Positions 1,021 to 19,727 of a DNA stretch of 37,366 bases are shown here, in pieces (within the stretch, counting starts at the first letter, position 1; every line of letters starts with the position of its first letter). The stretch comes from Polyangiaceae bacterium. GTDB lineage: Bacteria; Myxococcota_A; Polyangia; Polyangiales; Polyangiaceae. A model generated the notes under the pieces. The model was not told where the DNA came from, made no database searches, and saw only the letters and a program-made list of their open reading frames with translations. The position numbers were made by a program, and so were the translations under genes. The stretch lies in assembly GCA_029261965.1 (NCBI GenBank), contig JAJDAH010000437.1, positions 1 through 37,366 on the forward strand, written 5' to 3'.

Positions 1021-2826
1021 TCAGCGCAGCGCTTCGGCAAGCAGGATCTGAACGAAGTCTTCTCTCGGCAGCTGGACTCGAGCACCGATCTCGGGGGCGG
1101 AGACGCGCACGTATTGGCCGTCTCGCCAGCTCATCCAGACGTAGCTCTCCGAGTCGATGGGGTCGTGAAAACGGAATTCGGTCGATGAAGGGCGGCCGTC
1201 GGCGGTCACCGCCGTGACCTTGGCCGTCAGTGTCCGAAGCTCGATCTCGTCTCCGTCACGCAGCGGGTGGCGTGCGGCGCGGAAGAGGCGCTCGGGTTCC
1301 GTATGGAGGTAGCCGCGTTCGGGCGTGACCCGGACGGTACGTTCACTCGGCCGAACGATCTCGACCGGCGAGGTCGACGTGCTCAGCCAGTAGATGTGCG
1401 CGGGGCGCGGGGCGCCACGTCTTTCGCGAGTCACGTGCAACCAGCTGGCGAATTGGTCGATCGGCACGTTGGTCAGAATCAGAGTTTTTCCTCGGATGGA
1501 ATTGTCATCGGGGATGCTCCGATCGGCGCGGTCGAGCGCGCGTCCGAGCACTTCGAGCGATCGGGCACGCAGAGGCAGCAACACTGGCGCTACGACCAGG
1601 TGCAGCAGGATGAAGCCTGAGCTCAGGAGCGCCGTCACGAATGGCACCTTTTCCCGAGCGGCCAGCCGTCGGACGAAGGTCGACACGACGACCGCGACCA
1701 GCGCAGACCCACCGATGCCGACGAGGAGTAACTGTCGGTCGCTCGAGAACGACGCGCACATCGGTATCGCGGCGAGCACTAGGCCGAGTGCCCAGAACTT
1801 CACGGTCTTTTCCTCGCGAAGCTCTCGTCGAAGCAACCACGTGAGGGAAACCACAGTGATCGTCGCCGCCAGGTACAAGACCCATTGCTCGTCCGGGGGA
1901 CCAAAAAACGCAGCGTCAGCTCCGGGCGCGCCGAACTGGCCCATCATCAACATCCCGAGGCGCTTGGGGAGCGCCAGCAAGTACGCTCCGGTCTCGCCCC
2001 CCGGGTCGATGTAAGCGTCGGATCCGTACGACCCGTACCCCATCGACGAGTAGATGGCGCGCCACCCAGCGACCACGAGACCGTACGGCAACAGAGAAAA
2101 AAGGCGTCCACGAAACGGCGCGCGATCGAGGAACAACGCGTAGCTCAAGACGTATCCGCAGGCGCCGATGGCGATCTCCCCGGCGAACAAGCCGATGCCG
2201 AGCGCCAGTGGTCCGAGAATGGCGGTGGCACGCTTGCCACCTCGGCGAAATTCGTCGTGGAACACGAGGGCGAGTACGGCGAAGAGTGAGCCAATCGCCG
2301 CGTTGCGGTTGGCGTTCCAGCCGATGGTTTGCCCGTGGGCGTCGTCAATCGCGTAGAGCAAGAACGCGACCCCACCGAGCCAGGCGTTTTCGTGCAGTCG
2401 TCGATAGAGCGCCGCGACGGCCGCGAGCAGCGCCGCGTACCACAGGATTGTGTGCACGTGCATCAAGCGCGCGGATCCAGGCCAGAGCACACCATCGAGC
2501 AAGTGAGTCAGCGCGGAGAGCGGTCGAAAAAACGCGTTCTTGAATTCGGGCAGCGTCCACCAGGCGAGCACGCCCTCGTCGACCATTTTTTTGACGTCCG
2601 ACGGGTTCCCGCTCGCGAACACAAAAAAGTGCAACGGCCCACTGCGGTGTCCGACGACTCCCGGGTCGGCGCGCTTGAGGATCTCGTGGGTATTGTCGTC
2701 GAACACGAATCGCTCGCCGATGGACGGTGCGACCAGAAGCACCGCGACCGCCATGATCGCCCAGTGGGCGCGACCGCTACCCAGGCGATGAAAGAGCTCG
2801 TGGAGGCGAACGCCGAGGTAACGCAT
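1021..2826 (-). CDS. multi-pass membrane protein, GT-C glycosyltransferase-like
   Basis: The product is 601 residues from ATG at 2826. A first membrane segment at about 22-38 is followed by Phe-Val-Phe-Asp-Asp-Asn (40-45), the loop-1 acidic motif typical of GT-C glycosyltransferases that use polyprenyl-phosphate sugars. A second typical block, Phe-Arg-Pro-Leu-Ser at about 100-104 followed by Leu-Leu-Asp-Gly and His-Val-His, also fits that superfamily (TMTC-like proteins). Some ten hydrophobic segments follow to about residue 420. The last 170 residues are soluble and unlike any domain I recognise. It may transfer a sugar to a surface protein or glycan, but the substrate is not deducible. It starts a minus-strand run with two lipoprotein genes. 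No clear ribosome binding site precedes the ATG. Confidence 0.7.
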   Translation of the reverse strand: MRYLGVRLHELFHRLGSGRAHWAIMAVAVLLVAPSIGERFVFDDNTHEILKRADPGVVGHRSGPLHFFVFASGNPSDVKKMVDEGVLAWWTLPEFKNAFFRPLSALTHLLDGVLWPGSARLMHVHTILWYAALLAAVAALYRRLHENAWLGGVAFLLYAIDDAHGQTIGWNANRNAAIGSLFAVLALVFHDEFRRGGKRATAILGPLALGIGLFAGEIAIGACGYVLSYALFLDRAPFRGRLFSLLPYGLVVAGWRAIYSSMGYGSYGSDAYIDPGGETGAYLLALPKRLGMLMMGQFGAPGADAAFFGPPDEQWVLYLAATITVVSLTWLLRRELREEKTVKFWALGLVLAAIPMCASFSSDRQLLLVGIGGSALVAVVVSTFVRRLAAREKVPFVTALLSSGFILLHLVVAPVLLPLRARSLEVLGRALDRADRSIPDDNSIRGKTLILTNVPIDQFASWLHVTRERRGAPRPAHIYWLSTSTSPVEIVRPSERTVRVTPERGYLHTEPERLFRAARHPLRDGDEIELRTLTAKVTAVTADGRPSSTEFRFHDPIDSESYVWMSWRDGQYVRVSAPEIGARVQLPREDFVQILLAEALR

Positions 2827-3047: not shown

Positions 3048-4694
3048 TTAGGGCAACCACTTCATCCCGAGGAAAACTTGATCGTTGCCGCGATAGATCC
3101 CTCCTATCGAAATGTTCGCGATTCCGAACTGACGGGGTGCTGGTCCGCCCAGGAGGAAGGCGCCGGCTTCGAGGGCGAGCTCGTCTACCACGCGCCACTC
3201 GATACGGGGTGCGGCGAGCCAAGTCTGTCCGGTGAAACCGAGTCCGGCGACCTCGAGTGACACCGGACCGTTGCCCGGCGCCCAGCGTACGAGCGCCGCG
3301 CCGCCGCTCCAGAACCGTCCGTCTTCGAGGGTTATCCACTCGAGCCGGGGGTCGCCTGGGCGATCGAGCGCGTAGGTGAAAAATGCTTCTCCACCGACGA
3401 GCCATTCGGTGCCGGACACGAAGTCGAACCTGACGGCGGTGTGCAACAGGTCGGTCTGTGCGGGGGTCGGGTTCGCGCCGAGCCCCGTGGCGACCAGCGT
3501 GCGGTTCACCATGTAGGCCCCCTCGATTCCGATCTGGACGGGCCCGACGTCGGTAGCAGCGTCCACGGAGGCGATGCCGAACCGGTTGTATTCGACTCGC
3601 AGCGGCCTTGGCTCCGCCAACAGCGCGAGGGCTGCGGTCGCGGTGGGATTGGTGAGGAAGTTGTCGAGAGCGGGGGTGATGATGACCGCCGGCAGTCGCT
3701 CGAGCGCGGTGCCTGCGGTGACGCTGATCTCGCCGGCGCCGGAGCGAGCGGTCGCCCGCATGGCGGCCTGGGGTTCCTCGAGGTTCGGTTCTGGGCCGAG
3801 AGTTCTGAGCGCGTCGTTGCTCAGGGTCGAAACTGCGGACCGCTCGACGGCGCGTTCGAGCAGCCGGCTCGCGCCGGCGCCGCCGACCGTTGCCGCTTGT
3901 CGCTCGGCCAGCTCGAAGAGCGAATAGTCGCTGCGCACGACTGACACGAGGTGAGGCTGGAAGAATGGCAGATAGATCGTCGTCAGGCTCAACCACGACC
4001 CGTCGAGATCGAGCCGCAGCGCCGGTTGCGCGATCTCCGACGGCACCGGCATGAGCGGGCCACTTCGAAAGTCGTTGACCGACAAGAAGCTCGTGGCGCC
4101 GAACACGTCGAATCGACCGAGCGGCACGCCCTGATACCCAGCGCGAAGGTGCACACCGGGGCAGAGCGTCGCGTCCGCGTACGCCGCCGTGGGTACGACG
4201 TCGAGCGCGTAGCGGTCTTGGTCGCCGAACTCGGCGTTCCTTCGCGCGGCCATCTCGAAGCGCGCGCGGAGTCCGAGTCCGAACCGAAGTTTTTCGCTCC
4301 GACGCACGGTCGCCTCGAACGACATGAGCTGCAGCCCCTCGAACACGTCTTCGCGCGAGTTATCGAAGGTGGTGTCCACCGCCAGACGCGTGTGCAGGGT
4401 CGGGACGAAATCTACGGTCGGCCCCGACTTTGCAATAGCGGTGGGTACAGTGCTCGTTTCCCCCCCAGTCCTCAGCTCCGGATCGTCGATGACCTCGCCG
4501 TCATCGTCGTTTTCCAGCAAAAAGACGGTGTTTTTCTCGTCTGTCTCCGCCGGGGGTGCGTCGGCCGACTCGTCGACGGGCTGGGCTTCTGTACGAGCCG
4601 CGAACAGCAAGGTTGTTTGCAACGCGCACACCAGTGTCCACCCCAGTCGAAAAATCCGGGCACGGTGGACGGTTCTGGTCGATTGCGGAGTCAT
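3048..4694 (-). CDS. outer-membrane beta-barrel protein, DUF1302-like
   Basis: The product is 548 residues from the ATG at 4694. A 30-codon extension is open upstream, but this Met begins a classical signal peptide (basic n-region, hydrophobic Leu-rich core to about residue 32, cleavage near Ala-Arg-Thr-Glu-Ala). After an acidic linker rich in Asp/Glu (40-65), the protein is made of alternating hydrophobic and aromatic strands typical of outer-membrane barrels. It includes a Gly-Tyr-Gln...Gly-Arg-Phe-Asp-Val and Leu-Ser-Val-Asn-Asp-Phe-Arg-Ser-Gly block like that of DUF1302 proteins, and ends in a hydrophobic strand with penultimate Leu. It is transcribed away from the regulator/LolA-like/prenyl-synthase run and shares its control region. 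Elsewhere, DUF1302-type proteins travel with lipid-handling periplasmic proteins, so a role as the outer-membrane partner of this locus is likely but inferred. Confidence 0.7.
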   Translation of the reverse strand: MTPQSTRTVHRARIFRLGWTLVCALQTTLLFAARTEAQPVDESADAPPAETDEKNTVFLLENDDDGEVIDDPELRTGGETSTVPTAIAKSGPTVDFVPTLHTRLAVDTTFDNSREDVFEGLQLMSFEATVRRSEKLRFGLGLRARFEMAARRNAEFGDQDRYALDVVPTAAYADATLCPGVHLRAGYQGVPLGRFDVFGATSFLSVNDFRSGPLMPVPSEIAQPALRLDLDGSWLSLTTIYLPFFQPHLVSVVRSDYSLFELAERQAATVGGAGASRLLERAVERSAVSTLSNDALRTLGPEPNLEEPQAAMRATARSGAGEISVTAGTALERLPAVIITPALDNFLTNPTATAALALLAEPRPLRVEYNRFGIASVDAATDVGPVQIGIEGAYMVNRTLVATGLGANPTPAQTDLLHTAVRFDFVSGTEWLVGGEAFFTYALDRPGDPRLEWITLEDGRFWSGGAALVRWAPGNGPVSLEVAGLGFTGQTWLAAPRIEWRVVDELALEAGAFLLGGPAPRQFGIANISIGGIYRGNDQVFLGMKWLP

Positions 4695-4769
4695 CTCGAG
4701 CGGTGTGGCCGCGAGCCACCCAATCACGAATTCAGGATCGGCGCCCACGTTAAGCGCGGCGCCCAACGA

Positions 4770-4785
4770 GGTGGAACTTTCCACC
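4770..4785. promoter_or_regulatory. candidate operator palindrome in divergent region
   Basis: GGTGGAACTTTCCACC is a perfect inverted repeat with 7-bp arms and a 2-bp centre. It lies in the 260-bp region between the beta-barrel gene (starting at 4694, minus) and the GbsR/MarR-type regulator (starting at 4955, plus). The size and symmetry fit a dimeric winged-helix repressor site. A second, looser pair (GCATCGG at 4801-4807 and CCGATGC at 4850-4856) lies just downstream. The link to the adjacent regulator is inference. Confidence 0.4.
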
Positions 4786-5649: not shown

Positions 5650-6480
5650 ATGAATCATTCACAAAAGAGCTTCCCGCCCTCGATGCCTCCGCGCGTCGGT
5701 CGCCGCCGTTTTGCGGTCGTTTCGATGGCGCTGGCCGCGGCGCTCGTCGCGTTGCCGGCGTTTGCCGGCGGCCCGAGCGCCGAGCACATCGCCAAGAGCA
5801 TTCTCGTCAGCAACGGCTTCAGCTGGGAAGGCGCCAAGACGCGGATGAAGATGGTGCTCATCGAAAAGGGCGGCAAGAAGCGCGAGCGCGCGATGGTCAT
5901 CGTGGGGCGCCGTCATCAGGGCCGCCTTCAGACCGTGGTTCGCTTCCGTTCGCCGAGCGATGTAGCCGGGACTGCATTCCTGATGCTCGAGAAAAAGAAC
6001 GGGAAGAGCGAGCAGCACATTTATCTCCCTGGACTCAAGCGCACGCGTCGCATCGTCGGGCGTGAGAGTCAGGGCAGCTTCATGGGAAGCGACTTTCTCT
6101 ACGTCGACATGCGACGCCCCGCGGTGGACGAAGGAATTCACAAGCGGCTGGCCGACGAGAAGCTCGGGGGAACCGCCGCCTATGTGATCGAGTCCCGTCC
6201 CAAGAAGCCCCGGAAGGCGCCGTATTCCAAAGTCGTGACTTGGGTTCGCCAAAACGACTCGGTTCCACTTCGGACGCGCTTCTACGACAAGTCGGGGAAG
6301 CTCCTGAAGACTCTGTACGCGCGCAAGATCAAGAAGCTGGAGGGGCGCCCGGTCGTCACTCACGCGCGCATGGAAAACCAGCAAACCGGTCACGCTACCG
6401 AGCTCGTCGTCGAGTCCGTCGAAAGACGGGACGACCTGCCCGACACGGCTTTCACTCCCACTGCGCTCGAGCACCAGTAG
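5650..6480 (+). CDS. periplasmic LolA-like outer-membrane lipoprotein-sorting protein
   Basis: The product is 276 residues from ATG at 5650, 32 bp after the regulator. The N-terminus has Gly-Arg-Arg-Arg-Phe-Ala (17-22), a hydrophobic core and an Ala-Phe-Ala cleavage site at about 39. The arginine pair allows Tat export, though Sec is equally possible. The mature part matches the LolA-like family (PF17131): a block with Arg-Ser-Pro-Ser-Asp-Val-Ala-Gly-Thr-Ala-Phe-Leu, then Tyr-Leu-Pro-Gly-Leu-Lys-Arg-Thr-Arg-Arg-Ile, then Gly-Ser-Phe-Met-Gly-Ser-Asp-Phe. The fold is an open hydrophobic half-barrel that carries lipids or lipoproteins across the periplasm. Such proteins are often found beside MMPL exporters; none is present here. 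With a beta-barrel and an isoprenoid enzyme as neighbours, its cargo may be a terpenoid lipid (inference). Confidence 0.8.
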   Translation: MNHSQKSFPPSMPPRVGRRRFAVVSMALAAALVALPAFAGGPSAEHIAKSILVSNGFSWEGAKTRMKMVLIEKGGKKRERAMVIVGRRHQGRLQTVVRFRSPSDVAGTAFLMLEKKNGKSEQHIYLPGLKRTRRIVGRESQGSFMGSDFLYVDMRRPAVDEGIHKRLADEKLGGTAAYVIESRPKKPRKAPYSKVVTWVRQNDSVPLRTRFYDKSGKLLKTLYARKIKKLEGRPVVTHARMENQQTGHATELVVESVERRDDLPDTAFTPTALEHQ

Positions 6481-6501: not shown

Positions 6502-8877
6502 ATGTCCACCGCATTCGACCTGAAAGACCTCGACAGTGACATTCGCGCGCTCAAGCACGAGCCCGTGGACGTTGCGCAGTTCAGCCGGCCGGTGGATTGG
6601 CCGGCGCCGGGCGCGATCGACCTCGACGTGCACGACCTGCCGCACGCCTCCTCGACGACGGAGTGGTGGTACCAAAACACCCACCTCGTCGCCGAAGACG
6701 GGAAGCACTACTCGCTGTTCTGCGCGTTCTTCCGACAGATGAAGGGCTGGGACCCCGAAACGAAAGAGAAGCTTTACGCCCATTCGATCACGTGGGCGAT
6801 CACCGACGTCGACGCGAAGAAGTACGTGCATCACTCGGGCATCGATCAGAGCGCACCCGAGGAAGGTTTGAAGAGGATCACCCGCGGTCTAGGCGCGAAG
6901 GATCAGCGTCTGAACCGCGCCCTCGCCGAGGTTCTCGAACGCGGCAACGTGCCCTCGCCGGATCAGCTTTTCAAGGAGCGGGTTTTCGTGAACCTGCATC
7001 GCCTCGAGCTCGACTACGCGGGCGATACCTGGCGCAAGCAGGACGACGGGACCTATCGGCTTCATCTCTGGGACGAGGAGCGCAAGGCTGGTTGCGAGCT
7101 CGCGTTCGATCCGCTCAAGCCCCCGACGCGTCATGGCGACGACGGCGTGGTCCTCGGCGCCGACAGCGAGGTGATGTTCTACTATTTCATCCCGCGGTGC
7201 CAGGTGACGGGCCGTGTCACGTTCAATGGGGTCGAGTCTCCGATCAAAGTGGGCAGCGGTTGGATCGACCACGAGTTCGGGGTTGGCGACACGAGCATCC
7301 TCGAGGACGAGCTTCGGGACTCGCAGCGCACCGAGGAAGAGCTGAACGAGGTCCACGCCGAAAGGCGCGCTCAGAAGGAGGCGAGTGCCGTCGGCTGGGA
7401 CTGGTTGAGCTGTCAGCTCGACGACGGGACAGATGTCACGGTCTATCCGCTCAAGCACCTGCTGAGCAACGAGAGCGCGGGCGACCATTGCGTCGTCATC
7501 GATCCGCGTGGCCGGCGGAGCGTCCATCACGACATTACCTTCGAGGCGATCGAGTGGTGGCAGAGCACTCAGACGTTCTTCGAGTATCCGGTACGGTGGC
7601 GCGTGCACATTCCGAGCGCCGGCCTCGAGCTCGACGTCAAAGCGTCGTTCCCGGACCAGGAGTTCATCACGCTCATCAGTAAGCCGTCGTTCTGGGAAGG
7701 CCGCGTGCAGGTGGAGGGCACTCGCCGCGGCGCCGAGGTCAGTGGACCCGGATACATCGAGCGCAGCGGGTTCACGCCCTTCGAGGACCTCGACGGGTAC
7801 TTCAAAGCCGTAGGCAAGGTCATTCGCGCATCGATTGCCAAGGCGCTGCCTCTCGAGCCCGACTACGAGACCGCTCGGGACCTCATCGCGAGTGAGGAGC
7901 GCGACCACTACATGGACGGGCTCGACCTCGAGCAGCTCGGCCGTACGCTCATCGCCCCCATCCGGGAAATGACCGACCGCGGAGGCAAGGGTTGGCGCTC
8001 TTACGCGGCGATCACTTGTTGCGACATCGTTGGAGGAGATTCCCGCAACTTCGTCCAGTGGTTGTGCATGCCCGAGATGATGCACGTGGGCTCACTAATC
8101 GTGGACGACGTGCAAGACAAGTCGACCATCCGGCGCGGCGGACCCTGCGCCCACCTGATGTACGGCGAAGCTCAAGCGATCAACTCGGGCACTGCCGCCT
8201 ACTTCGCCACCCAAAAGATGCTCGTCAATTCGCCGCATCTATCCGACGCCAGCCGGCTTCGCATCTACGACCTCTACTTCGAGGCCATGCGCGCCGGGCA
8301 TGCCGGTCAGGCGATCGATCTCGACGGATTCGATGGCATGATGGATCACGTCGTCGCGAGCGGTGACGCTGCGGAGCTCGAGAAGCGAATCCTCTGCGTT
8401 CACCTTCTCAAGACGGCGGCTCCCGCCGGCGCGCTCAGCCGAATGGGCGCCATCGCCGGTGACGGGACGGATCAACAGGTCGAGGCGCTGGGGAACTTCT
8501 TCGAGAAGCTCGGCCTGTCCTTCCAGATCATCGACGACGTGCTCAATCTCCGAGGCTTCAAAGGGGACCTGAAGAGCAAGGGAGAAGACATCCAGCAGGG
8601 CAAGATCACATTGCCTGTCGCAAAAGCGTTTGGCCGGATGTGCCTGGACGACCGACGCTGGGTCCACGAGACTCTACGGACCAAGCCCGAGGATCCCGAG
8701 GTCGTTCAAGCCGTCATCGACAAACTCGAGGAATGCGGTGCGATCGAAGCTTGCCTGCAGGAAGCCAAGGACATGGTCGAGCAGGCCTGGCAACAACTCG
8801 AGCCCACGGTCGAAGACACGCTGGCCAAGCTGATGTTGCGGGCCTTCAGCTGGTTCATTCTCGAACGGCATTACTGA
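6502..8877 (+). CDS. CrtC/AttH-like lipocalin-fold enzyme fused to polyprenyl diphosphate synthase
   Basis: The product is 791 residues from ATG at 6502, with GAGG 6 bases upstream and 21 bp after the LolA-like gene. Residues 40-425 match the CrtC/AttH (hydroxyneurosporene synthase-like) double lipocalin: Glu-Trp-Trp-Tyr-Gln-Asn (54-59), Gly-Trp-Ile-Asp-His-Glu-Phe-Gly (253-260), Gly-Trp-Asp-Trp (298-301), Phe-Trp-Glu-Gly (397-400) and Gly-Tyr-Ile-Glu (417-420). Relatives hydrate or cyclise isoprenoids. Residues 480-791 are a trans-polyprenyl synthase: Gly-Lys-Gly-Trp-Arg (495-499), first Asp motif Asp-Asp-Val-Gln-Asp (535-539), Gly-Gln-Ala-Ile-Asp (602-606) and second motif Asp-Asp-Val-Leu-Asn (678-682), followed by a Lys-Gly-Glu-Asp...Gly-Lys segment. 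Gly530, the fifth residue before the first motif, leaves room for products longer than C15. The fusion would make a prenyl diphosphate and possibly tailor it. The codon bias matches the neighbours. Confidence 0.88.
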   Translation: MSTAFDLKDLDSDIRALKHEPVDVAQFSRPVDWPAPGAIDLDVHDLPHASSTTEWWYQNTHLVAEDGKHYSLFCAFFRQMKGWDPETKEKLYAHSITWAITDVDAKKYVHHSGIDQSAPEEGLKRITRGLGAKDQRLNRALAEVLERGNVPSPDQLFKERVFVNLHRLELDYAGDTWRKQDDGTYRLHLWDEERKAGCELAFDPLKPPTRHGDDGVVLGADSEVMFYYFIPRCQVTGRVTFNGVESPIKVGSGWIDHEFGVGDTSILEDELRDSQRTEEELNEVHAERRAQKEASAVGWDWLSCQLDDGTDVTVYPLKHLLSNESAGDHCVVIDPRGRRSVHHDITFEAIEWWQSTQTFFEYPVRWRVHIPSAGLELDVKASFPDQEFITLISKPSFWEGRVQVEGTRRGAEVSGPGYIERSGFTPFEDLDGYFKAVGKVIRASIAKALPLEPDYETARDLIASEERDHYMDGLDLEQLGRTLIAPIREMTDRGGKGWRSYAAITCCDIVGGDSRNFVQWLCMPEMMHVGSLIVDDVQDKSTIRRGGPCAHLMYGEAQAINSGTAAYFATQKMLVNSPHLSDASRLRIYDLYFEAMRAGHAGQAIDLDGFDGMMDHVVASGDAAELEKRILCVHLLKTAAPAGALSRMGAIAGDGTDQQVEALGNFFEKLGLSFQIIDDVLNLRGFKGDLKSKGEDIQQGKITLPVAKAFGRMCLDDRRWVHETLRTKPEDPEVVQAVIDKLEECGAIEACLQEAKDMVEQAWQQLEPTVEDTLAKLMLRAFSWFILERHY

Positions 8878-11525: not shown

Positions 11526-12227
11526 ATGCTTCATCTCTACGTGCCAGCGTCGCTTCGTCACTTCGCTCCTCGGCGTGCGGCAAAGGACCCGTGCGTCCCG
11601 CTGTACTACGACCTGACTCACGCCTTGCGGCCCCGCCTCGCCGTCGATCTCGGAGCGGGGCATTGTTCGGCGTTCTTCGCGATTTGCGACGCGGTGAAGG
11701 AGCACGATTTCGACTGCGCCTGCTACGCGTTCGAGCCGTGGGCAGAAAAGCCCGAGGGCGACGAGCCACGTTTCAATCCTCTGATCCTGCATGGTCGTCG
11801 CTACCACATGGGCATCTCGTACTTCGTCAAGCTGGAGCCGGTGAAAGCCCTCGCGCACTTCGATGACGGTATGATCGACCTCCTTCGTGTCGACGCCAGT
11901 CGCGGCTTGATACCCGCCGAGCAGCTCGAGCAATGGCGTCGCCGCGTTTCCCCGACCGGTGCGTTGGTCGTCGACGGACTCCACACTCCGGAGGGGCAGG
12001 AGTTTTGGCGGGCCGCAGGTCAGCCGGAGCAGGGGTTTCGCTATCGTCGGATCGTGGTGCTCGTCGGTGGCGAGGTCGACCGAAGCGCGCGTTTGCTCGA
12101 CCTACTGAGCGACTCTGGGGAACATGCCGACCTGCGTGGCTTCTACGAGCACGTCGCCGATCATCACCGGATGCGTCAGGACGTGGATGCGGTTGGTTTC
12201 GCCAGCGCGAAAAAGGCGAAACGTTGA
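11526..12227 (+). CDS. class I SAM-dependent methyltransferase-like protein
   Basis: The product is 233 residues from the ATG at 11526, which follows AAGGA at 11515-11519 with ideal spacing; ATG 11490 or 11436 would add up to 30 residues. It resembles the Methyltransf_24 group: Ala-Val-Asp-Leu-Gly-Ala-Gly-His (motif I, about 38-45), Tyr-Ala-Phe-Glu-Pro-Trp (post I) and Ile-Asp-Leu-Leu-Arg-Val-Asp-Ala with a downstream Gly-Ala-Leu-Val-Val-Asp-Gly-Leu-His. The usual Asp-Gly-x-His pair of the active relatives is here Asp-Ala-Ser, so catalysis is not assured. It overlaps the next gene by 4 bases and is its paralogue, so the two are translated together. It probably acts on a sugar or small molecule; the substrate is unknown. 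Confidence 0.7.
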   Translation: MLHLYVPASLRHFAPRRAAKDPCVPLYYDLTHALRPRLAVDLGAGHCSAFFAICDAVKEHDFDCACYAFEPWAEKPEGDEPRFNPLILHGRRYHMGISYFVKLEPVKALAHFDDGMIDLLRVDASRGLIPAEQLEQWRRRVSPTGALVVDGLHTPEGQEFWRAAGQPEQGFRYRRIVVLVGGEVDRSARLLDLLSDSGEHADLRGFYEHVADHHRMRQDVDAVGFASAKKAKR

Positions 12228-12949
12228 TCTTCTTGCCGCCGTCGGTTCGTGGGTTTCAAGCCCGATACATCGTGTTCAGCACCTGGATGGACCACCTGCC
12301 GTTCGGCTACGACCTCGTCGATGCGCTACGGCCGTCCGTCGTGGTCGAGCTGGGTACCCAAGCGGGGCTCTCCTACTTCGTACTGTGCCAATCCGTAGCG
12401 GAGAATCAGATCCCTGCGAAGTGTTTCGCCGTCGATACCTGGCGCGGCGATGGCCACACCGGGGCATACGACGACGCGACGTTTCGAAAGGTGGACGCAC
12501 ACAACTCCGAGCACTACTCGGAGTTCTCGACGTTGCTCAGGATGCTCTTCGAAGAGGCCGTGCCGCGCTTCGACGAGGAGTCCATCGACCTTCTCCACAT
12601 CGACGGGTTTCACTCGTACGAGGCCGTACGCGACGATTTCGAGACCTGGTATCCGAAGGTGCGCCCCGGGGGGGTCGTGATCTTTCACGATGTGATGGCT
12701 CGTCTGGCCGACTTCGGCGCCTGGCGCTTCTGGCGCGAGATCGCTGGCAAGCACGACTCTTTCATGTTCAACCACGGGTTCGGCCTCGGCGTTCTCCGGA
12801 AACCCGGCGGGCCAAGCATCGATGCGCCGCTTCTTCGGTTGATTTTCGACGGTACACCCGAAGAGCACGAGCGGCTGAGGGCGTTCTACATCCACGCGGC
12901 GGAGTATCAAGACCTGCTGCGGCGGGTCGCCCGCAACAACAAGAGCTGA
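12224..12949 (+). CDS. class I SAM-dependent methyltransferase (Methyltransf_24-like)
   Basis: The product is about 241 residues. The start is assigned to TTG 12224, which overlaps the preceding TGA in TTGA and lets the protein begin Leu-Ile-Phe-Leu-Pro-Pro-Ser, parallel to the paralogue's Leu-His-Leu-Tyr-Val-Pro-Ala-Ser. The next ATG (12287) would cut into the conserved region. Motifs are Val-Val-Glu-Leu-Gly-Thr-Gln-Ala-Gly-Leu-Ser-Tyr (SAM binding), Ala-Val-Asp-Thr-Trp, Asp-Leu-Leu-His-Ile-Asp-Gly-Phe-His-Ser-Tyr and Pro-Gly-Gly-Val-Val-Ile-Phe-His-Asp, which are textbook for this group. Genes of this type frequently sit in glycan or O-antigen-like decoration loci, as here beside glycosyltransferase and sulfotransferase genes. 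The substrate is unknown. Confidence 0.82.
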   Translation: MIFLPPSVRGFQARYIVFSTWMDHLPFGYDLVDALRPSVVVELGTQAGLSYFVLCQSVAENQIPAKCFAVDTWRGDGHTGAYDDATFRKVDAHNSEHYSEFSTLLRMLFEEAVPRFDEESIDLLHIDGFHSYEAVRDDFETWYPKVRPGGVVIFHDVMARLADFGAWRFWREIAGKHDSFMFNHGFGLGVLRKPGGPSIDAPLLRLIFDGTPEEHERLRAFYIHAAEYQDLLRRVARNNKS

Positions 12950-12951
12950 AC

Positions 12952-13788
12952 TCAGTCGCGTTCGGACGGCAGGTTCTGCCAGTCCGTGCCGAAGACGCGC
13001 TCGGTTGTCGGCGGGCGCTTGGCGGTGAAGTAGTAGGTGGCGATGGATTGCCGCATCGTTCCCGTCGGGCAAGTCAATGGATGCGGATGCCCGTGGTAGG
13101 AATCGTCCGTCGTATTGAAAATGACGCAGCGATTCGCGATCGGCAGGATGCGCTGAACGCATTCGCTCATATCGTCGTTCCACAGTTCGAGGTGCCCGCC
13201 GTAGTCTTCTTGCCAATCCTTGTTCATGTACAAGAGCAAGTTGACCTCGCGGTTCAAGTAGAGGTTCGGGTGCAAACGGTAGTCGGCATGCACTCGCAGT
13301 AGGCCACCGCGTTCGACCATGTGCACACCGCCCCCCTGCAGGAGGTTGTCCGCGACGAGGGCCTCGATGCCCGTCAGCTCTTGCAGCATCAACGTGAACG
13401 GACCGCAATTTATCTCGCCGAGGAAAAGCCGCAGATCGGGCTGCATAAACAGCAGGTTGTCCAGGTGGTGTTTGTTCGCTTGAGCCATGCGACCGTCGTC
13501 CAACTTGGTCGTCAGGTTCCCCCAGTGGATGCGCTCGTCGTGCACGTCGGGCAGCGCGGCATGAATGCGTTCGAAGCTCTCGGGCGGCAGAAAATCGTCG
13601 ATGACGACGTGTGGAAACGGTTTGGCGTTCTGGTATTCGGCGCTGCGTGACTTCGCGATGTCGAGAAAGCGCGGGAAATCCAGAAACGTGTCTCGCGCGG
13701 CCTCCGTGGGGAAGTGCTGAAGAAACCTCTTTTGAAGCATCACCCGCATGATGCGTTCTGCTTGAGTCAGTTCGTCTTCGGGCGGCAT
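12952..13788 (-). CDS. 2-oxoglutarate/Fe(II)-dependent oxygenase
   Basis: The product is 278 residues from ATG at 13788. The C-terminal half is a prolyl-4-hydroxylase-like jelly roll. Iron ligands are His167-Ala-Asp169 and His232 (in Ser-Tyr-His-Gly-His-Pro), and the 2-oxoglutarate-binding Arg246 lies in Thr-Met-Arg-Gln-Ser-Ile. The Tyr-Gly-Gly-His-Leu-Glu-Leu-Trp block (196-203) is the typical strand before the distal His. The family hydroxylates proteins, sugars or small molecules. It is convergent with the methyltransferase pair, with 2 bp between stops, and divergent from a TylF-type methyltransferase. It probably adds a hydroxyl that the neighbouring methyl- or sulfotransferases then modify (inference). 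Confidence 0.85.
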   Translation of the reverse strand: MPPEDELTQAERIMRVMLQKRFLQHFPTEAARDTFLDFPRFLDIAKSRSAEYQNAKPFPHVVIDDFLPPESFERIHAALPDVHDERIHWGNLTTKLDDGRMAQANKHHLDNLLFMQPDLRLFLGEINCGPFTLMLQELTGIEALVADNLLQGGGVHMVERGGLLRVHADYRLHPNLYLNREVNLLLYMNKDWQEDYGGHLELWNDDMSECVQRILPIANRCVIFNTTDDSYHGHPHPLTCPTGTMRQSIATYYFTAKRPPTTERVFGTDWQNLPSERD

Positions 13789-13873
13789 CGATGCAACCGT
13801 TCGCGCGGAAAGGCTAACACGGGCGGCGAGCTGTCGGCCACGGACTGGCGCGCGCCTGTGCTATCGTCGCAGG

Positions 13874-14767
13874 GTGCGCAACGAGCCCGTGAAGCTCAGC
13901 CTCGCCGCGCCGGAGGTACGCTGTCCACTCACCGGCGCGGCCGCTCGTTACGTCATGTTGCTCAAGCGGTCGGTGCTCGGCGAGCTGGACCCGGAGAAGC
14001 AGCTTCGCCTCGCCTATCTGAGGTGGTGCGCCGAAGGCAATGCCAGGTTCGAGCGTGGACGCCTGCATGACGTTCGCGCGCACGACGACCCCCGATTCGC
14101 CGAAGTTTTGGGTGCCATGAGGGAGGGCCGCCCCCCGGATTGGGACATCGATCAGCTGGGGTTTGCCTTGACCATGTCCGGCCGGCAGAGGATCGAGAAC
14201 GTAGAAAGCTGCGTCTACGACCTCATCGAGCGGCGGATCCCGGGAGACTTCATCGAATGCGGGGTGTGGCGCGGTGGCGTGGTGATTTTCATGCGTGGTT
14301 TGCTCGAGGCCCTGGGAGTTGGGGACCGCGTCGTTTGGGCGGCGGACTCCTTCGCGGGCCAGCCCCCGCCCCTCGCGAGTCCGGACTTGGACATGGGCGA
14401 GGACCTCACGAAGAACGTCACGCGATCACTCGCAGTGGACTTGGCGACGGTGAAAAGGAACCTCTCGGCCCACGAGTTGTTGGACGACCAGGTCGCGTTC
14501 CTCGAAGGATGGTTTCGATTGACGTTGCCCAAAGCGCCCATCGATCGACTCGCGCTTCTGCGGGTCGACGGAAACATGTACACGTCGACGGACCACGCGC
14601 TCGACGCCCTGTACGACCGGGTCAGCGAGGGCGGCTATGTCATCGTTGGGGACTATGGGCTGCCGAACAGCCGGCGGGCCGTCGACGACTTTCGAAGCCG
14701 ACGTGGCATTTTCGAGCCACTGTTCGCGATCGATTGGTCGGGCGCGCTGTGGCGTAAGGGCGGCTGA
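13874..14767 (+). CDS. TylF/MycF-family O-methyltransferase, divergent metal site
   Basis: The product is 297 residues from GTG 13874; a GTG at 13889 is an alternative, and neither has a strong ribosome binding site. Family landmarks are Met-Ser-Gly-Arg (101-104), Gly-Asp-Phe-Ile-Glu-Cys-Gly-Val-Trp-Arg-Gly-Gly (124-135, SAM loop), Ala-Asp-Ser-Phe (157-160) and Leu-Glu-Gly-Trp-Phe (210-214). TylF and MycF methylate deoxysugar hydroxyls using Mg2+. Here the metal-binding motif reads Asp232-Gly-Asn234 instead of Asp-Gly-Asp, and Gly259-Asp260-Tyr instead of Asp-Asp-Tyr, while the paralogue at 16605 keeps both. Activity may therefore be altered or lost. Its stop is one base from that of the convergent glycosyltransferase gene. 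Confidence 0.85.
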   Translation: MRNEPVKLSLAAPEVRCPLTGAAARYVMLLKRSVLGELDPEKQLRLAYLRWCAEGNARFERGRLHDVRAHDDPRFAEVLGAMREGRPPDWDIDQLGFALTMSGRQRIENVESCVYDLIERRIPGDFIECGVWRGGVVIFMRGLLEALGVGDRVVWAADSFAGQPPPLASPDLDMGEDLTKNVTRSLAVDLATVKRNLSAHELLDDQVAFLEGWFRLTLPKAPIDRLALLRVDGNMYTSTDHALDALYDRVSEGGYVIVGDYGLPNSRRAVDDFRSRRGIFEPLFAIDWSGALWRKGG

Positions 14768-14768
14768 G

Positions 14769-15737
14769 TCAGATCCGTTCGCCGTCGGGGCCCATCCATT
14801 CGCCGATGCCCCGCTTCTTGCAGATGTAGTGGTGTCGTTTGGCGTCCTCTGCGGAGGTGATCACGTACTTCTGAGCTTGACCAGCTAGCGTGCCGAGGAT
14901 CAGTGGCTCTCGGTGCATGCCACGAAACGGTCCACCGAACACGCCGGCGAGGTTCTCCTGGTGCGACTTGATGACTTCGTCGCGGTCGTCGATCTCCGCG
15001 GTGGTCACTCCGCCATGATATTGGTGAAACGTGCCTTCTCCCGCCAGCACGATGAGCCTGCTCTCGGGAAGTCGGGCAAGCGCGTGATAGATGTAGATGT
15101 TCACGCTGCCACCGCCGGGAAGGTTGAAGCGCTCGTCGGCGCAGCCAATCTTCTCGAAGCTCGTCGACTTGCAGAATAGGCAATTGGATTCGAGAAACCG
15201 ACCGAAGAACCCTTTCGGGTTCGCGCCGCTGAAGCAGCAGATGTCGAACAGATCGTAACCGTTGTTCTTCCAATCAATCGTCGCCAGCAGGATCTGCTCT
15301 GTTTTCTCGTCGTAGCCGGCGGTCTGGTTGAAGTGATGCTCTTTTTTGCCTAGGTGGTAGCCGGGCACGATCACGAGAGGGTTGTCCGCGAGTTTCTTCG
15401 CAAGTAGCGCGTGCTCGATGACTCGCGGCGAGACCATGCGCGCCCCATCGACGATGAGCCCTACGTAGTCGGCCGCACATTGTGCAAACCCGAAGTTCAG
15501 CGAGGGCACCGGGGAGGGGCTGGGCTCCTTACGGTAAAAGTAGCGAATGTTGCCCCCTGCTGCGGTCGCTCGTTCTTCGCCGAGCTCGTCGTCGGAATCG
15601 TTCTCGACGGCGATGATCTCGTAGTCCACCTCCTCCACGTTCCTTTGGAACTGGGTGGACAGGCTGTAGAGCGTGTTCTCGGCCTGGCGAGACATACGAT
15701 AGAAGGTCACGACGACCGAAAGCTTGGTTTGGCTCAT
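14769..15737 (-). CDS. family 2-type glycosyltransferase
   Basis: The product is 322 residues from ATG 15737. It starts Lys-Leu-Ser-Val-Val-Val-Thr-Phe-Tyr (5-13), the first beta strand of a GT-A Rossmann fold, then Ala-Val-Glu-Asn-Asp-Ser (about 43-48) and Tyr-Val-Gly-Leu-Ile-Val-Asp-Gly-Ala at about 90-98. There the usual Asp-x-Asp metal motif appears as Asp-Gly-Ala. The C-terminal part contains Cys-Cys-Phe-Ser-Gly-Ala-Asn-Pro and Phe-His-Gln-Tyr-His-Gly-Gly. It probably transfers a sugar to a glycan or lipid acceptor in the cytoplasm. Its ATG overlaps the TGA of the upstream sulfotransferase (ATGA), so the two are translationally coupled and probably act on the same product. Confidence 0.78.
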   Translation of the reverse strand: MSQTKLSVVVTFYRMSRQAENTLYSLSTQFQRNVEEVDYEIIAVENDSDDELGEERATAAGGNIRYFYRKEPSPSPVPSLNFGFAQCAADYVGLIVDGARMVSPRVIEHALLAKKLADNPLVIVPGYHLGKKEHHFNQTAGYDEKTEQILLATIDWKNNGYDLFDICCFSGANPKGFFGRFLESNCLFCKSTSFEKIGCADERFNLPGGGSVNIYIYHALARLPESRLIVLAGEGTFHQYHGGVTTAEIDDRDEVIKSHQENLAGVFGGPFRGMHREPLILGTLAGQAQKYVITSAEDAKRHHYICKKRGIGEWMGPDGERI

Positions 15738-16534
15738 CGGGCGGCGCCCCCATCAGGTGAGAGGTCGAAGACGGTCCGGTTCGCCGCTTTCTGGCGCGCT
15801 TCGAAAACGCGGGTCGCGTGCTCGAAGAAGCGAACGTCGTATTCGAGGTCGTTTCGCATTCGTTTACGCAGCGAGTCGGGGACTGCCGCCTGTTCCCGCG
15901 GCGCGTCGTGCCAGTGCACGACCCTCTTGAACTTCCAACCGAAGGCTCTCTCGAGATCGTGAGCGAACGTGGGGAACTCGCGGGTGAGACCAAGAACGTC
16001 GAGGGATTCCAGGTTCTCTTGGGCGCGCTTCAACCGTTCTTCGTCCCAGTCGAAGGTTCGATTCATCAGGCTCGGCGCGTCGTCGCTTTCATCGAACACG
16101 AAGGCGCGGGCCTGCAGATTGTACAAGTAGTCGTCGAAGATCTGCTTGTCCTCGTACAGCTCTTCGAAGGGACGATTGGGATGGTCGTCACGCTGGATGT
16201 GGCGCAAGTGAGACGCGGCACGATCCACCGGGTCCCGCAGCAGGCTGAACGTGATGAGGGGAGGTGGGTGAATCTGGTAGGCCAGGAACGGATAGTGTGC
16301 GGCGATGACCCGGATCGGGGCCAGATCTCGCGGGATCTTGTCCTTGAACCGATACGGATTGATCACGTGAAACACCAGGCGAGCCTGCTCGTCCGCGTCG
16401 GGCATGTACGGCGCCAACTCGTGCGGTTGCAGAACACTCTCGAGGAGCATTCCGCGGAGCGATGTGCCGCCCGTCTTCATGACGTGGCAGAACCAACCGA
16501 CGGGTTGCCGCTCCGATGGGTCCACTCCTCGCAT
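15734..16534 (-). CDS. sulfotransferase
   Basis: The product is 266 residues from ATG 16534; an in-frame GTG at 16543 adds three residues. The 5'-phosphosulfate-binding loop is His-Val-Met-Lys20-Thr-Gly-Gly-Thr-Ser (18-25), and the 3'-phosphate motif is Leu-Arg100-Asp-Pro-Val-Asp-Arg-Ala-Ala-Ser108. Both are diagnostic of PAPS-dependent sulfotransferases. No membrane segment is visible, so the enzyme is cytoplasmic. It would move sulfate from PAPS to a hydroxyl of a sugar or small molecule. It is coupled to the glycosyltransferase gene by a 4-bp overlap and paralogous to the sulfotransferase at 17503. No PAPS synthesis genes lie in the window. Confidence 0.85.
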   Translation of the reverse strand: MRGVDPSERQPVGWFCHVMKTGGTSLRGMLLESVLQPHELAPYMPDADEQARLVFHVINPYRFKDKIPRDLAPIRVIAAHYPFLAYQIHPPPLITFSLLRDPVDRAASHLRHIQRDDHPNRPFEELYEDKQIFDDYLYNLQARAFVFDESDDAPSLMNRTFDWDEERLKRAQENLESLDVLGLTREFPTFAHDLERAFGWKFKRVVHWHDAPREQAAVPDSLRKRMRNDLEYDVRFFEHATRVFEARQKAANRTVFDLSPDGGAAR

Positions 16535-16604
16535 ATACCACACGACTCGTGCACGCGAGCGCCGCTCGGCGGGCCCCCGGGGAGCCGCGTGTTAGGGTCT
16601 CGAA

Positions 16605-17438
16605 GTGGTTGGCGAGCGGTACGTCGAGCTCCTGAAGCGTTCGATCCTCGGGGCCCTCGACGAGGACAACCAGCTTCGGGTTTGGTACCTCCGGCGCTGC
16701 CTGACCGAACGGGCGTTCTACGATCCCCGGACGCTCTACGCCATCCGGCAGCACGCGCCGGATGCGGCCGCGCGGTTCCTGGGTTCCAACGAGAAGGGTA
16801 TGCCCTACGAGTGGGATCTGGACCAGCTGCCCTTCACGCTGAGCATGTCCGGTCGCGCACGCGTCGAGAGCTTGGAGCAGTGCGTGCGGGATGTGATTCG
16901 TGACGAAGTCCCCGGGGACTTCATCGAATGTGGAGTCTGGCGAGGCGGCATGGCGATTCTCATGCGCGGTTTGCTCGAGGTGCTGGGAGACGGGGGCCGC
17001 ACGGTGTGGGTGGCAGATTCCTTCGAGGGACTGCCGGCGCCGCGAGCGGAACCCGACAACGCGTCGGGCGTCGACCTGAGCAAGCAGGTCGTCCCGTCAT
17101 TGGCCGTCGACGCCGAAACGGTCCGTCGTAACTTCGCCAATCACGGGCTTCTGGACGATCGAGTTCGGTTTCTCGAAGGCTGGTTCGCGGATACGTTGCC
17201 CGCGGCACCCATCGACCAGCTAGCGCTGCTGCGTGCGGATGGCGACATGTACTCGTCCACGGTGGACATCTTGAGCTCGCTCTACGACAAGGTTTCGCCG
17301 GGTGGAGTGATCATCATCGACGACTATGCTCTGCCGGCTTGTCGCGTGGCGGTCGACGAGTTCCTTCAGCAGCGCGGGTTGAGACCTACGCTCGTCGAAG
17401 TCGATTGGGCGTGCGTCTACTGGCGCAAAGGAGCGTGA
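16605..17438 (+). CDS. TylF/MycF-family O-methyltransferase
   Basis: The product is 277 residues from GTG 16605, with AGGG at 16594-16597 as a plausible ribosome binding site. It is closely similar to the product at 13874 along its whole length: Leu-Leu-Lys-Arg-Ser-Ile-Leu-Gly near the start, Met-Ser-Gly-Arg, Gly-Asp-Phe-Ile-Glu-Cys-Gly-Val-Trp-Arg-Gly-Gly (104-115), Ala-Asp-Ser-Phe-Glu-Gly-Leu-Pro (137-144). Unlike that paralogue it has an intact metal site: Asp212-Gly-Asp214-Met-Tyr-Ser-Ser-Thr and Asp239-Asp240-Tyr. It is therefore the likely active sugar or small-molecule O-methyltransferase. It is followed after 64 bp by a sulfotransferase on the same strand and is divergent from the other sulfotransferase. 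Confidence 0.88.
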   Translation: MVGERYVELLKRSILGALDEDNQLRVWYLRRCLTERAFYDPRTLYAIRQHAPDAAARFLGSNEKGMPYEWDLDQLPFTLSMSGRARVESLEQCVRDVIRDEVPGDFIECGVWRGGMAILMRGLLEVLGDGGRTVWVADSFEGLPAPRAEPDNASGVDLSKQVVPSLAVDAETVRRNFANHGLLDDRVRFLEGWFADTLPAAPIDQLALLRADGDMYSSTVDILSSLYDKVSPGGVIIIDDYALPACRVAVDEFLQQRGLRPTLVEVDWACVYWRKGA

Positions 17439-17502
17439 TGGCCCGCAGTTTTCTTCGAAGCGGTCGGCGAATCATGACGATCTCCGGTTTGCGGACCAGC
17501 TA

Positions 17503-18219
17503 GTGGACTCGTCCGGCGAAAACCGACCGTATTTCTTCGTTCACATCATGAAAGTGGGAGGCGGGTCCTTCAAGCAGATGGTCCGGGAACGCATCTTCCC
17601 CGGGGTGGCGTTTTATCCCGGACCCCAGGACGAACCGCCGCTCGAGGCCAACTTGTCGCCAGATCTTCTCGCTTCACTCACACCCGAACGGCGGGCCCAG
17701 ATTCGTTTCTATTCTGGTCACTTCCCGCTCGCCGCCCGGTCGTTGATTACTCCCGCTCCCAGGGTGCTCACTCTGTTTCGCCACCCGGTCGATCGAGCGA
17801 TTTCGTACCTCAAGATGCATCGGCGAGATCGCGCCCTCCAGGCGCCGCTCGAAGCCATCTACGACGACCCCGTTCAGTTCCACGGGTTCATCAGCAACCA
17901 TCAGGTGAAGGTATTGTCGGCGGCGACTCTCGACGAGCTGCCGCGAAGCTTCGCGCGGCGAGACCAGGACCAGACTGACTTGGCTTTGGCGAAGGCGGCG
18001 GTCGAGACGCTCGAGTTTTTCGGTGTCCAGGAGCGATTCCAGGATTCGCTCCGTCGATGCGAGGCGATGTTCGGATGGGACCTCGGTGAGCCGGCACGAC
18101 GCAACCTCGGTGATGATTCGACCGCCACTCGAGCGTTGCGGAGCAGAATCGAATCCGACAACGCGCTCGACATGGACTTCTACGAGCATGTCCGGTCCGA
18201 GTTCGACGCCCGCGGTTAG
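17503..18219 (+). CDS. sulfotransferase
   Basis: The product is 238 residues from GTG 17503. Motifs are His-Ile-Met-Lys17-Val-Gly-Gly-Gly-Ser22 (5'-PSB loop) and Phe-Arg93-His-Pro-Val-Asp-Arg-Ala-Ile-Ser101 (3'-PB), plus a general base candidate in Ser-Gly-His73-Phe. It is shorter than, but clearly related to, the product at 15734. The two probably sulfate different positions of one compound, or related compounds. It follows the intact TylF-type methyltransferase gene and converges on the sulfatase gene with a 4-bp overlap of stop codons (TTAG). Confidence 0.82.
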   Translation: MDSSGENRPYFFVHIMKVGGGSFKQMVRERIFPGVAFYPGPQDEPPLEANLSPDLLASLTPERRAQIRFYSGHFPLAARSLITPAPRVLTLFRHPVDRAISYLKMHRRDRALQAPLEAIYDDPVQFHGFISNHQVKVLSAATLDELPRSFARRDQDQTDLALAKAAVETLEFFGVQERFQDSLRRCEAMFGWDLGEPARRNLGDDSTATRALRSRIESDNALDMDFYEHVRSEFDARG

Positions 18220-19631
18220 GTCGAGCCCATCGTGGGCTCAGCGGCGATCTCGACTCGGGGGCCCTGAAGGAGCTGAGCCATCATGGCGGCCCGCAGTTGC
18301 TCGAGCTCGACAATGAACCGTAGGTCTCCCGCTAGATTGTTCGTTTCTCTCGGATCTTCCGCCAGATTGAAGAGCATTTCCTCTTCGTGCTCGAGGTGCC
18401 GAAACAGCTTCCACTTCCCGCGCCTCACCATCGGGTACTCGGCGTTCGATGCCGTATGAACGAATCTCTCCGGAAGAACGTCGTCCCCGAAGTGTGGCAG
18501 GCAGCTCACCGTGTCGAAAACTGCATCGGGTGGCGCGACGCCCGCCAAATCCAAGCACGTGAGCGCGACGTCCGCGTTCTGGACCGGCGAATCGATGCGT
18601 CGCCCCGAAGGGATCCCGGCTCCATGGACGAAGAAGGGGACTCGCGCAAGCTCCTCGAAGGGGAGGAACGGTGTTTTCATCAACAAGCCTCGCCGCCCAT
18701 GAAAGTCGCCATGGTCGCTCGTGAAGAAGAAGACCGTCTTCTTCATGTCCAAGTGCGGTAGCAGCGCCCCGACACAATCGTCGATTTGGTGGATCAGGGC
18801 GCGCCGGTAGGTGAGAATTTTTCGGGTCAACGAGTCGCCGGCGCGCTCGACGGGAAGAAACCCGAATCCGCTTTCTATGAGTCTTGTCGCAACCGCAGGC
18901 AGGCCCACCGCACGATCGCGCTCGGTTTCGTAGGTGCAGTCGGCGGCGTCGTAGCGTTCGAGGTACTTTGGCGGGGGATCGAACGGCGCATGGGGCCGGG
19001 GAAAGGAGATCCACACCAGACGGGGTTTTTCCGTTCCGGCGGTCGACTGCAGGTACTCGACCGCTTCGCGCGTGATCCAAGAGAGCACGTGGGCCTCGAC
19101 CTCGTGCGGGAAGGGGTTGGCCGCCGGGACTCCTTGCCGTTCGCGAGATCGAAACAAGTGTGCTGATGGATCTTCGCCGATCTCGCGTCGGAACCACTCC
19201 GAGTAGTCGTCTTCGCCCCGCTGGGTGTGTAGCCCGAGGCCTTCGGCGAGACGCATGGTTTGGAAGCCGTGGTCCGCTCTGAGTGGGCTGAAGTGCCCCT
19301 TGCCGAACAACGCCGTGAGATACCCCGCGGCCCGGAGTGCACGAATGACCGTCCAGAATCCCTCGCGCAAAGGTCGTGCGGACGCCGAGGGATGCCGCGT
19401 GAGCTGCGGAGGTTTGTCACCGGGGAAATGTCCCGGAAGGAGTCCGGTCATGAGCGCACCGCGAGAAGGCGCGCAGGTGGTCGAGCAAGCGTAGGCGGTG
19501 TCGAAGATGGTCCCGGAGCGCGCCAACGCGTTCAGGTTCGGCGTGTCGTACTCGCGGTCATCGTACAGGCCGAGCTGGTCGTGCCGCTGCTGGTCCGTCA
19601 CGACCACGACGATGTCTGGTGTCGATGTCAC
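18216..19631 (-). CDS. type I sulfatase (formylglycine-dependent, C-x-P-x-R)
   Basis: The product is 471 residues from GTG 19631. The frame is open to 19910, but that would overlap the start of the glutaminase gene, and homology begins at Thr-Pro-Asp-Ile-Val-Val-Val-Val-Thr-Asp. The N-terminal Asp-x-Gln pair, the Cys-Ala-Pro-Ser-Arg formylglycine motif (about residue 51) and Ser-Asp-His-Gly-Asp-Phe (metal site, about 295) are all present. The Lys-Thr-Pro-Phe segment after them is like choline-sulfatase and phosphonate monoester hydrolase relatives. It hydrolyses a sulfate (or phosphonate) ester after Cys is converted to formylglycine by FGE or anSME, neither of which is in the window. No signal peptide is seen, so it appears cytoplasmic. 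It may reverse or edit the sulfation made by the two adjacent sulfotransferases. Confidence 0.87.
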   Translation of the reverse strand: MTSTPDIVVVVTDQQRHDQLGLYDDREYDTPNLNALARSGTIFDTAYACSTTCAPSRGALMTGLLPGHFPGDKPPQLTRHPSASARPLREGFWTVIRALRAAGYLTALFGKGHFSPLRADHGFQTMRLAEGLGLHTQRGEDDYSEWFRREIGEDPSAHLFRSRERQGVPAANPFPHEVEAHVLSWITREAVEYLQSTAGTEKPRLVWISFPRPHAPFDPPPKYLERYDAADCTYETERDRAVGLPAVATRLIESGFGFLPVERAGDSLTRKILTYRRALIHQIDDCVGALLPHLDMKKTVFFFTSDHGDFHGRRGLLMKTPFLPFEELARVPFFVHGAGIPSGRRIDSPVQNADVALTCLDLAGVAPPDAVFDTVSCLPHFGDDVLPERFVHTASNAEYPMVRRGKWKLFRHLEHEEEMLFNLAEDPRETNNLAGDLRFIVELEQLRAAMMAQLLQGPRVEIAAEPTMGST

Positions 19632-19727
19632 CCGAAGGGCCCCTGTTTCGTTCGTCTGTGCGTCGACTTCCGACGGTGTACCATGACCGGTTGAACCATG
19701 ACTTCCAAGCCCCGGACCTGAAAAAGA

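Follow-up and report, generated by a model that had tools for sequence, protein, structure and literature searches.

An open reading frame from a Polyangiaceae bacterium (assembly GCA_029261965.1) seems to join a lipocalin of the CrtC/AttH superfamily to a prenyl diphosphate synthase, raising the question of whether such a protein is genuine and what its two halves could do together. The stretch of DNA analyzed here, hereafter the window, comprises 37,366 nucleotides (contig JAJDAH010000437.1); its features and those of related loci are listed in Table 1. The frame contains no internal stop codon and is matched by three Pfam profiles which score above the curated gathering cut-offs: CrtC (PF07143; E = 9.1e-19, 69.2 bits for a cut-off of 22.5), Lipocalin_9 (PF17186; E = 1.9e-26, 93.2 bits for a cut-off of 26.2) and polyprenyl_synt (PF00348; residues 483–741, E = 1.4e-46). 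The original prediction of a single uninterrupted frame of 791 codons encoding both domains is thus borne out by the translation, by the profile matches and by homologs that read through the same join. A frameshift or missed stop between residues 425 and 480 had been named as a concern; the join is uninterrupted in 23 further homologs from the phylum, which share 38 to 57% sequence identity with the window protein, and the conservation of the fusion in other genomes rules out an assembly artifact or a frameshift.

Table 1. Location of the fusion, its domains and neighboring genes in the window, and of selected genes in related loci
Feature	Location	Strand	Basis or remark
GT-C superfamily glycosyltransferase (P0003)	1021..2826	-	predicted structure, co-occurrence
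Protein without Pfam match, outer-membrane beta-barrel look	3048..4784	-	by inspection alone; homolog in the relative L060
LolA-like/DUF1329 protein	5650..6480	+	Pfam 6e-58; 21 nt upstream of the fusion
CrtC/AttH lipocalin–prenyl diphosphate synthase fusion protein, 791 aa	6502..8877	+	translation (ATG at 6502, stop at 8877), Pfam, homologs, predicted structure
CrtC N-terminal lipocalin domain (PF07143)	6658..7281	+	Pfam; residues 53–260
Second lipocalin domain, Lipocalin_9 (PF17186), with Trp299 and Trp301	7381..7770	+	Pfam; residues 294–423
Trans-prenyl diphosphate synthase domain	7783..8874	+	Pfam, structure, alignment; about residues 428–791
HMG-CoA synthase-like protein, 502 aa	8971..10479	+	divergent, far below curated cut-offs
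Four-part protein: sulfotransferase, glycosyltransferase, CrtC/Lipocalin_9, prenyl diphosphate synthase	L058:6542-11101		G121, myxobacterium
Four-part protein, same parts	L145:9646-14175		Tolypothrix PCC 7601 plasmid, cyanobacterium
Lipase maturation factor-like membrane protein, directly downstream of the fusion	L117:12246-14528		Spirosomaceae; PF06762
Lipase maturation factor-like membrane protein, directly downstream of the fusion	L118:7360-9654		Spirosomaceae
Lipase maturation factor-like membrane protein, directly downstream of the fusion	L119:12245-14539		Spirosomaceae

The fusion had been treated as a singular protein, a view that has to be abandoned, as a search for the same architecture elsewhere uncovered a family spread over several phyla. 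Within the phylum, it is encoded by 26 of the 189 genomes sampled, including that of the window, the others sharing 39 to 59% identity with it (rows were counted by hand, and a few matches are contig-end pieces). A scan of one genome per species with an alignment as query, a single-sequence query of the same kind having given no match, returned 158 loci encoding relatives. The best 80 of these 158, nearly all of which span both halves, come from Myxococcota, Bacteroidota, cyanobacteria and other groups. Their titles name Myxococcota, Spirosoma, Telluribacter, Saprospiraceae, Chitinophagales and the cyanobacterium Iningainema tapete, along with single MAGs ascribed to Acidobacteriota, to Schekmanbacteria and to an archaeon, although such MAG titles may be wrong. 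More distant fusions are carried by plasmids of Tolypothrix and Streptomyces canus, where the sole annotation is "polyprenyl synthetase family protein". Residue and divergence analyses were performed on 79 stop-free aligned fusion proteins, including that of the window, which in the tree clusters with myxobacterial MAGs, one of them from the Sandaracinaceae. Divergence in one half is matched by divergence in the other (Mantel r = 0.83, the best of 1000 permutations reaching 0.27), which suggests that a single old fusion was inherited as a unit. Such an old and conserved fusion supports the idea that chain building and tailoring may be functionally coupled. Two records have questionable titles: the fusion of L075, titled as a Klebsiella pneumoniae MAG, clusters with uncultured Myxococcales and probably comes from a mislabelled bin, and that of L138, titled as a Thermoplasmata archaeon (69% GC), lies on a long branch, which may reflect a transfer or mis-binning.

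The structure prediction called for at the outset was run with AlphaFold, with 24 family sequences in the input, and recovered two canonical folds with a mean pLDDT of 87.9 and a pTM of 0.86. The N-terminal half adopts the double lipocalin-like beta-barrel fold of the CrtC/AttH superfamily; in a fold search its closest solved structure is AttH NE1406 (2ICH, Z = 35.5, 24% identity), and it also matches kievitone hydratase (7A0Q, Z = 32.6). In the model, the second barrel is followed directly, from about residue 428, by the synthase fold, with no long or flexible linker between them; the top structural match of this C-terminal half is the archaeal GGPP synthase 1WY0 (Z = 37.6).

The original observation that both halves keep their hallmark motifs was also confirmed, these being near-invariant across the 79 fusions. 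For the synthase half, all the PF00348 hallmarks are present, namely DDxxD, the second Asp-rich motif, GGKxxR and the K and R diphosphate ligands. In the window protein the motifs are found at residues 494–499 (GGKxxR), 535–539 (DDVQD) and 678–682 (DDVLN), and K496, R499, D535, D536, D539, R544, R545, Q675, D678 and D679 are invariant or nearly so in the alignment, while T638 and K701 vary. The second Asp-rich motif reads DDxxN in 77 of the 79 proteins and DDxxD in the other two. Gly and Ser at positions -5 and -4 of the first Asp motif (78/79 and 77/79, respectively) resemble type III GGPP synthases, and the closest sequences to the FARM region come from the prenyltransferase domains of fungal copalyl diphosphate synthases, with human GGPP synthase next, hence our guess of a product of about C20. 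Unlike the fusion, the archaeal and type III (eukaryotic) GGPP synthases are stand-alone enzymes. As the genome of the window holds three further synthase-like loci, the copy in the fusion looks dedicated.

Assigning a reaction to the lipocalin half relies on comparison with characterized relatives. In the CrtC of Rubrivivax (RgCrtC), D268 protonates the terminal double bond of the substrate, and W110, W283 and W285 are required (PMC12402844). The CrtC encoded in the carotenoid cluster of R. litoralis has Trp residues at D+15 and D+17, the same spacing as residues 268, 283 and 285 of RgCrtC, and its Asp and W.W align with D256, W299 and W301 of the fusion. Counterparts of Asp268, Trp283 and Trp285 are thus present, the mapping having been made through the R. 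litoralis protein rather than RgCrtC itself and resting on spacing and on the multiple alignment. D256, which sits in a WxDHEFG motif of the CrtC domain, is an Asp in 78 of the 79 fusions and a Glu in one, and both Trp residues are present in all 79. As for W110, the N-terminal strands align unreliably and give no confident counterpart. The CrtC of Rubrivivax and Roseobacter belong to the same PF07143 family as the fusion and share the Asp and W-x-W spacing, but they are stand-alone proteins acting on a C40 carotene, and their sequence similarity to the fusion is very low: an hhalign comparison of the lipocalin half against the single R. litoralis sequence gave a probability of 1.3%, which is not significant. 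The profile of the lipocalin half matches kievitone hydratase at 1.6e-16, with the Asp and W.W positions aligned. This Nectria enzyme, which hydrates a prenylated isoflavonoid (PMC6013536), has the same fold; it differs in being fungal, secreted and unfused and in acting on the prenyl side chain of the isoflavonoid. Free farnesol and geranylgeraniol are hydrated by RgCrtC at the terminal double bond with 17% and 4% conversion, respectively (PMC12402844), making prenyl chains of this kind plausible substrates of the fusion.

The same Asp and W.W are kept in AttH-type proteins, including 2ICH, for which the reaction is unknown, so that these residues are no proof of hydration. The lipocalin half might then be a non-catalytic, AttH-like lipid-binding module that extracts the prenyl product, sets the chain length or hands the chain over to a membrane glycosyltransferase or an exporter. 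AttH NE1406 being the closest solved structure is consistent with such a role, as is the genomic context: several fusions have ABC exporter or LolA-like genes nearby, and an AttH-type homolog, a plasmid relative, adjoins an ABC/FtsX permease. NE1406 itself differs from the fusion in having no synthase domain. That Asp256, Trp299 and Trp301 are invariant from phylum to phylum, and that the half matches a proven hydratase, suggests chemistry instead, and we consider a purely binding role improbable, although it is, together with cyclization, the main rival to the reading that we favor.

Cyclization would make the lipocalin half a protonation-initiated, class II-like cyclase in which Asp256 starts ring closure, and the fusion a non-canonical bifunctional terpene synthase. 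The mechanism of CrtC has been likened to that of squalene-hopene cyclase, and the fungal CrtC-domain proteins PenF and AsqC carry out acid-driven epoxide rearrangements (PMC6013536). In addition, the copalyl diphosphate synthase whose prenyltransferase domain the FARM region most resembles is a class II cyclase fusion (PMC8190136), and two cytochrome P450s encoded near the Telluribacter fusion resemble pentalenene and albaflavenone oxygenases, with scores below cut-off, no other terpene cyclase having been seen in the Telluribacter and Spirosoma neighborhoods that were read. The characterized relatives that act on prenyl chains, CrtC and kievitone hydratase, hydrate and do not cyclize, however, and the fold of the lipocalin half differs from that of class II cyclases, which leaves cyclization as a doubtful main activity.

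The best functional clue is the repeated association of the fusion with glycosyltransferases, which occurs in three different forms: fused, GT28-like adjacent and GT-C adjacent. First, a frame of 1509–1520 residues in the myxobacterial genome G121 and in the Tolypothrix plasmid includes the fusion, in the order sulfotransferase, GT28/EryCIII-type glycosyltransferase, CrtC, Lipocalin_9 and polyprenyl synthetase. Second, the Telluribacter locus contains a GT28-like glycosyltransferase, the fusion, the lipase maturation factor-like protein, an FkbM methyltransferase and the two P450s, in this order; Spirosoma has a similar gene set, judged from its ORFs, and a glycosyltransferase is present in Iningainema. 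Third, homologs of the GT-C protein of the window are found near the fusion in 21 loci (that of the window included), many of them within 300 nt. This membrane protein has no Pfam match, and a PDB sequence search with its profile came back empty; only the fold search, run on a model with a pLDDT of 91, gave matches, which reached Z = 18.5, are to OST, PMT, ArnT and ALG enzymes and show the transmembrane fold of GT-C glycosyltransferases. Its family occurs in 20 of the 26 genomes with the fusion vs 31 of the 163 without it (Fisher p = 1e-8), bearing in mind that related genomes are not independent and that the profile was built from neighbors of the fusion. A protein of about 210 residues with no match in Pfam or NCBIfam is also found at or next to the fusion in 20 loci (e.g. 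L093:12183-12818).

These partners also bear on a possible carotenoid pathway, in which the synthase half would supply GGPP and the CrtC half would hydrate a finished carotene, so that each half would work on a different molecule of one pathway. Both the CrtC family and the supply of GGPP belong to carotenoid biosynthesis, and the genome has one SQS_PSY match; yet no phytoene synthase or desaturase was recognized among the annotated genes of the window and of the related loci, where the partners are glycosyltransferases, P450s and methyltransferases, and we regard this pathway as very unlikely.

On the basis of the observed fusion, its conservation, its motifs, the two folds and the association with glycosyltransferases, we lean toward a bifunctional terpenoid enzyme that would make a prenyl diphosphate, hydrate or cyclize it at its far end and deliver it for glycosylation, a scheme for which we infer the chain length, the substrate, the hydration and the channeling. 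The C-terminal domain would condense IPP with allylic diphosphates into an all-E prenyl diphosphate, probably of about C20, and the N-terminal lipocalin would accept this chain as the diphosphate or as the prenol. Asp256 would protonate the terminal isopropylidene double bond, yielding a tertiary cation that could be stabilized by Trp299, Trp301 and probably Trp56, and quenched either by water or by an internal double bond, the latter giving a ring. The resulting hydroxylated or cyclized terpenoid would serve as a dedicated precursor of a specialized metabolite or lipid. Its glycosylation would follow, together with sulfation or oxidation in some lineages.

Each half of the protein belongs to a known family, but their joining appears unstudied. 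No description of a fusion between CrtC/AttH and a prenyl synthase was found in the literature searched, most subscription papers lying outside it, and a paper on structure-based mining of non-canonical terpene synthases mentions neither lipocalin nor CrtC. Prenyltransferase fusions are known in fungi, where PvCPS carries a class II cyclase and PaFS a class I cyclase (PMC8190136). As in these proteins, a GGPP-type prenyltransferase is covalently joined to the next enzyme, and among them it is the prenyltransferase domain of PvCPS that the FARM region of the fusion resembles most. The fungal partner is a helical cyclase, whereas the bacterial fusion has an N-terminal beta-barrel lipocalin and differs also in having no long flexible linker. 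With regard to assembly-line terpene synthases, the fusion thus contains the prenyltransferase, and its fused partner is not a known cyclase. A bolder proposal, which we put forward as tentative, is that these proteins form a new class of bifunctional terpene synthase distributed over several bacterial phyla. The chain made by the synthase half would here be completed by a protonase with a lipocalin fold instead of a helical cyclase, and the class would give rise to glycosylated and sometimes sulfated terpenoids, a family that domain-based terpene genome mining would miss. If true, this would represent a third type of terpene assembly line, combining chain synthesis with Asp-driven hydration or cyclization in a lipocalin. 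It would also offer a cofactor-free route to terminally hydrated C15–C20 terpenoids, which are wanted by chemists (PMC12402844), and would draw attention to glycoside gene clusters of myxobacteria, Spirosoma and cyanobacteria that are still unexplored.

Other genes of the window were considered as partners. Homologs of the LolA-like/DUF1329 protein, a possible lipid carrier, adjoin the fusion in three of the nearest relatives of the window (L060, L063 and L123). In two close relatives, an AMP-binding enzyme of the acetyl/acetoacetyl-CoA synthetase type adjoins the LolA-like gene and the fusion (L060:126-2045, L063:7092-8999). The HMG-CoA synthase-like protein keeps the HACLGG and GTESS motifs, and its close homologs are confined to some members of the same family. 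As a pathway partner it is unsupported: close homologs exist in two genomes, G190 and G112, that gave no match to the CrtC domain, and the gene clusters that recur beside the fusion do not include it. Further downstream, positions 11933-19910 of the window hold decoration-type genes, encoding two TylF-like methyltransferases, a third methyltransferase, a 2OG-Fe(II) oxygenase, a family 2 glycosyltransferase and a sulfatase, and these are followed by a PLP decarboxylase at 20702-22117.
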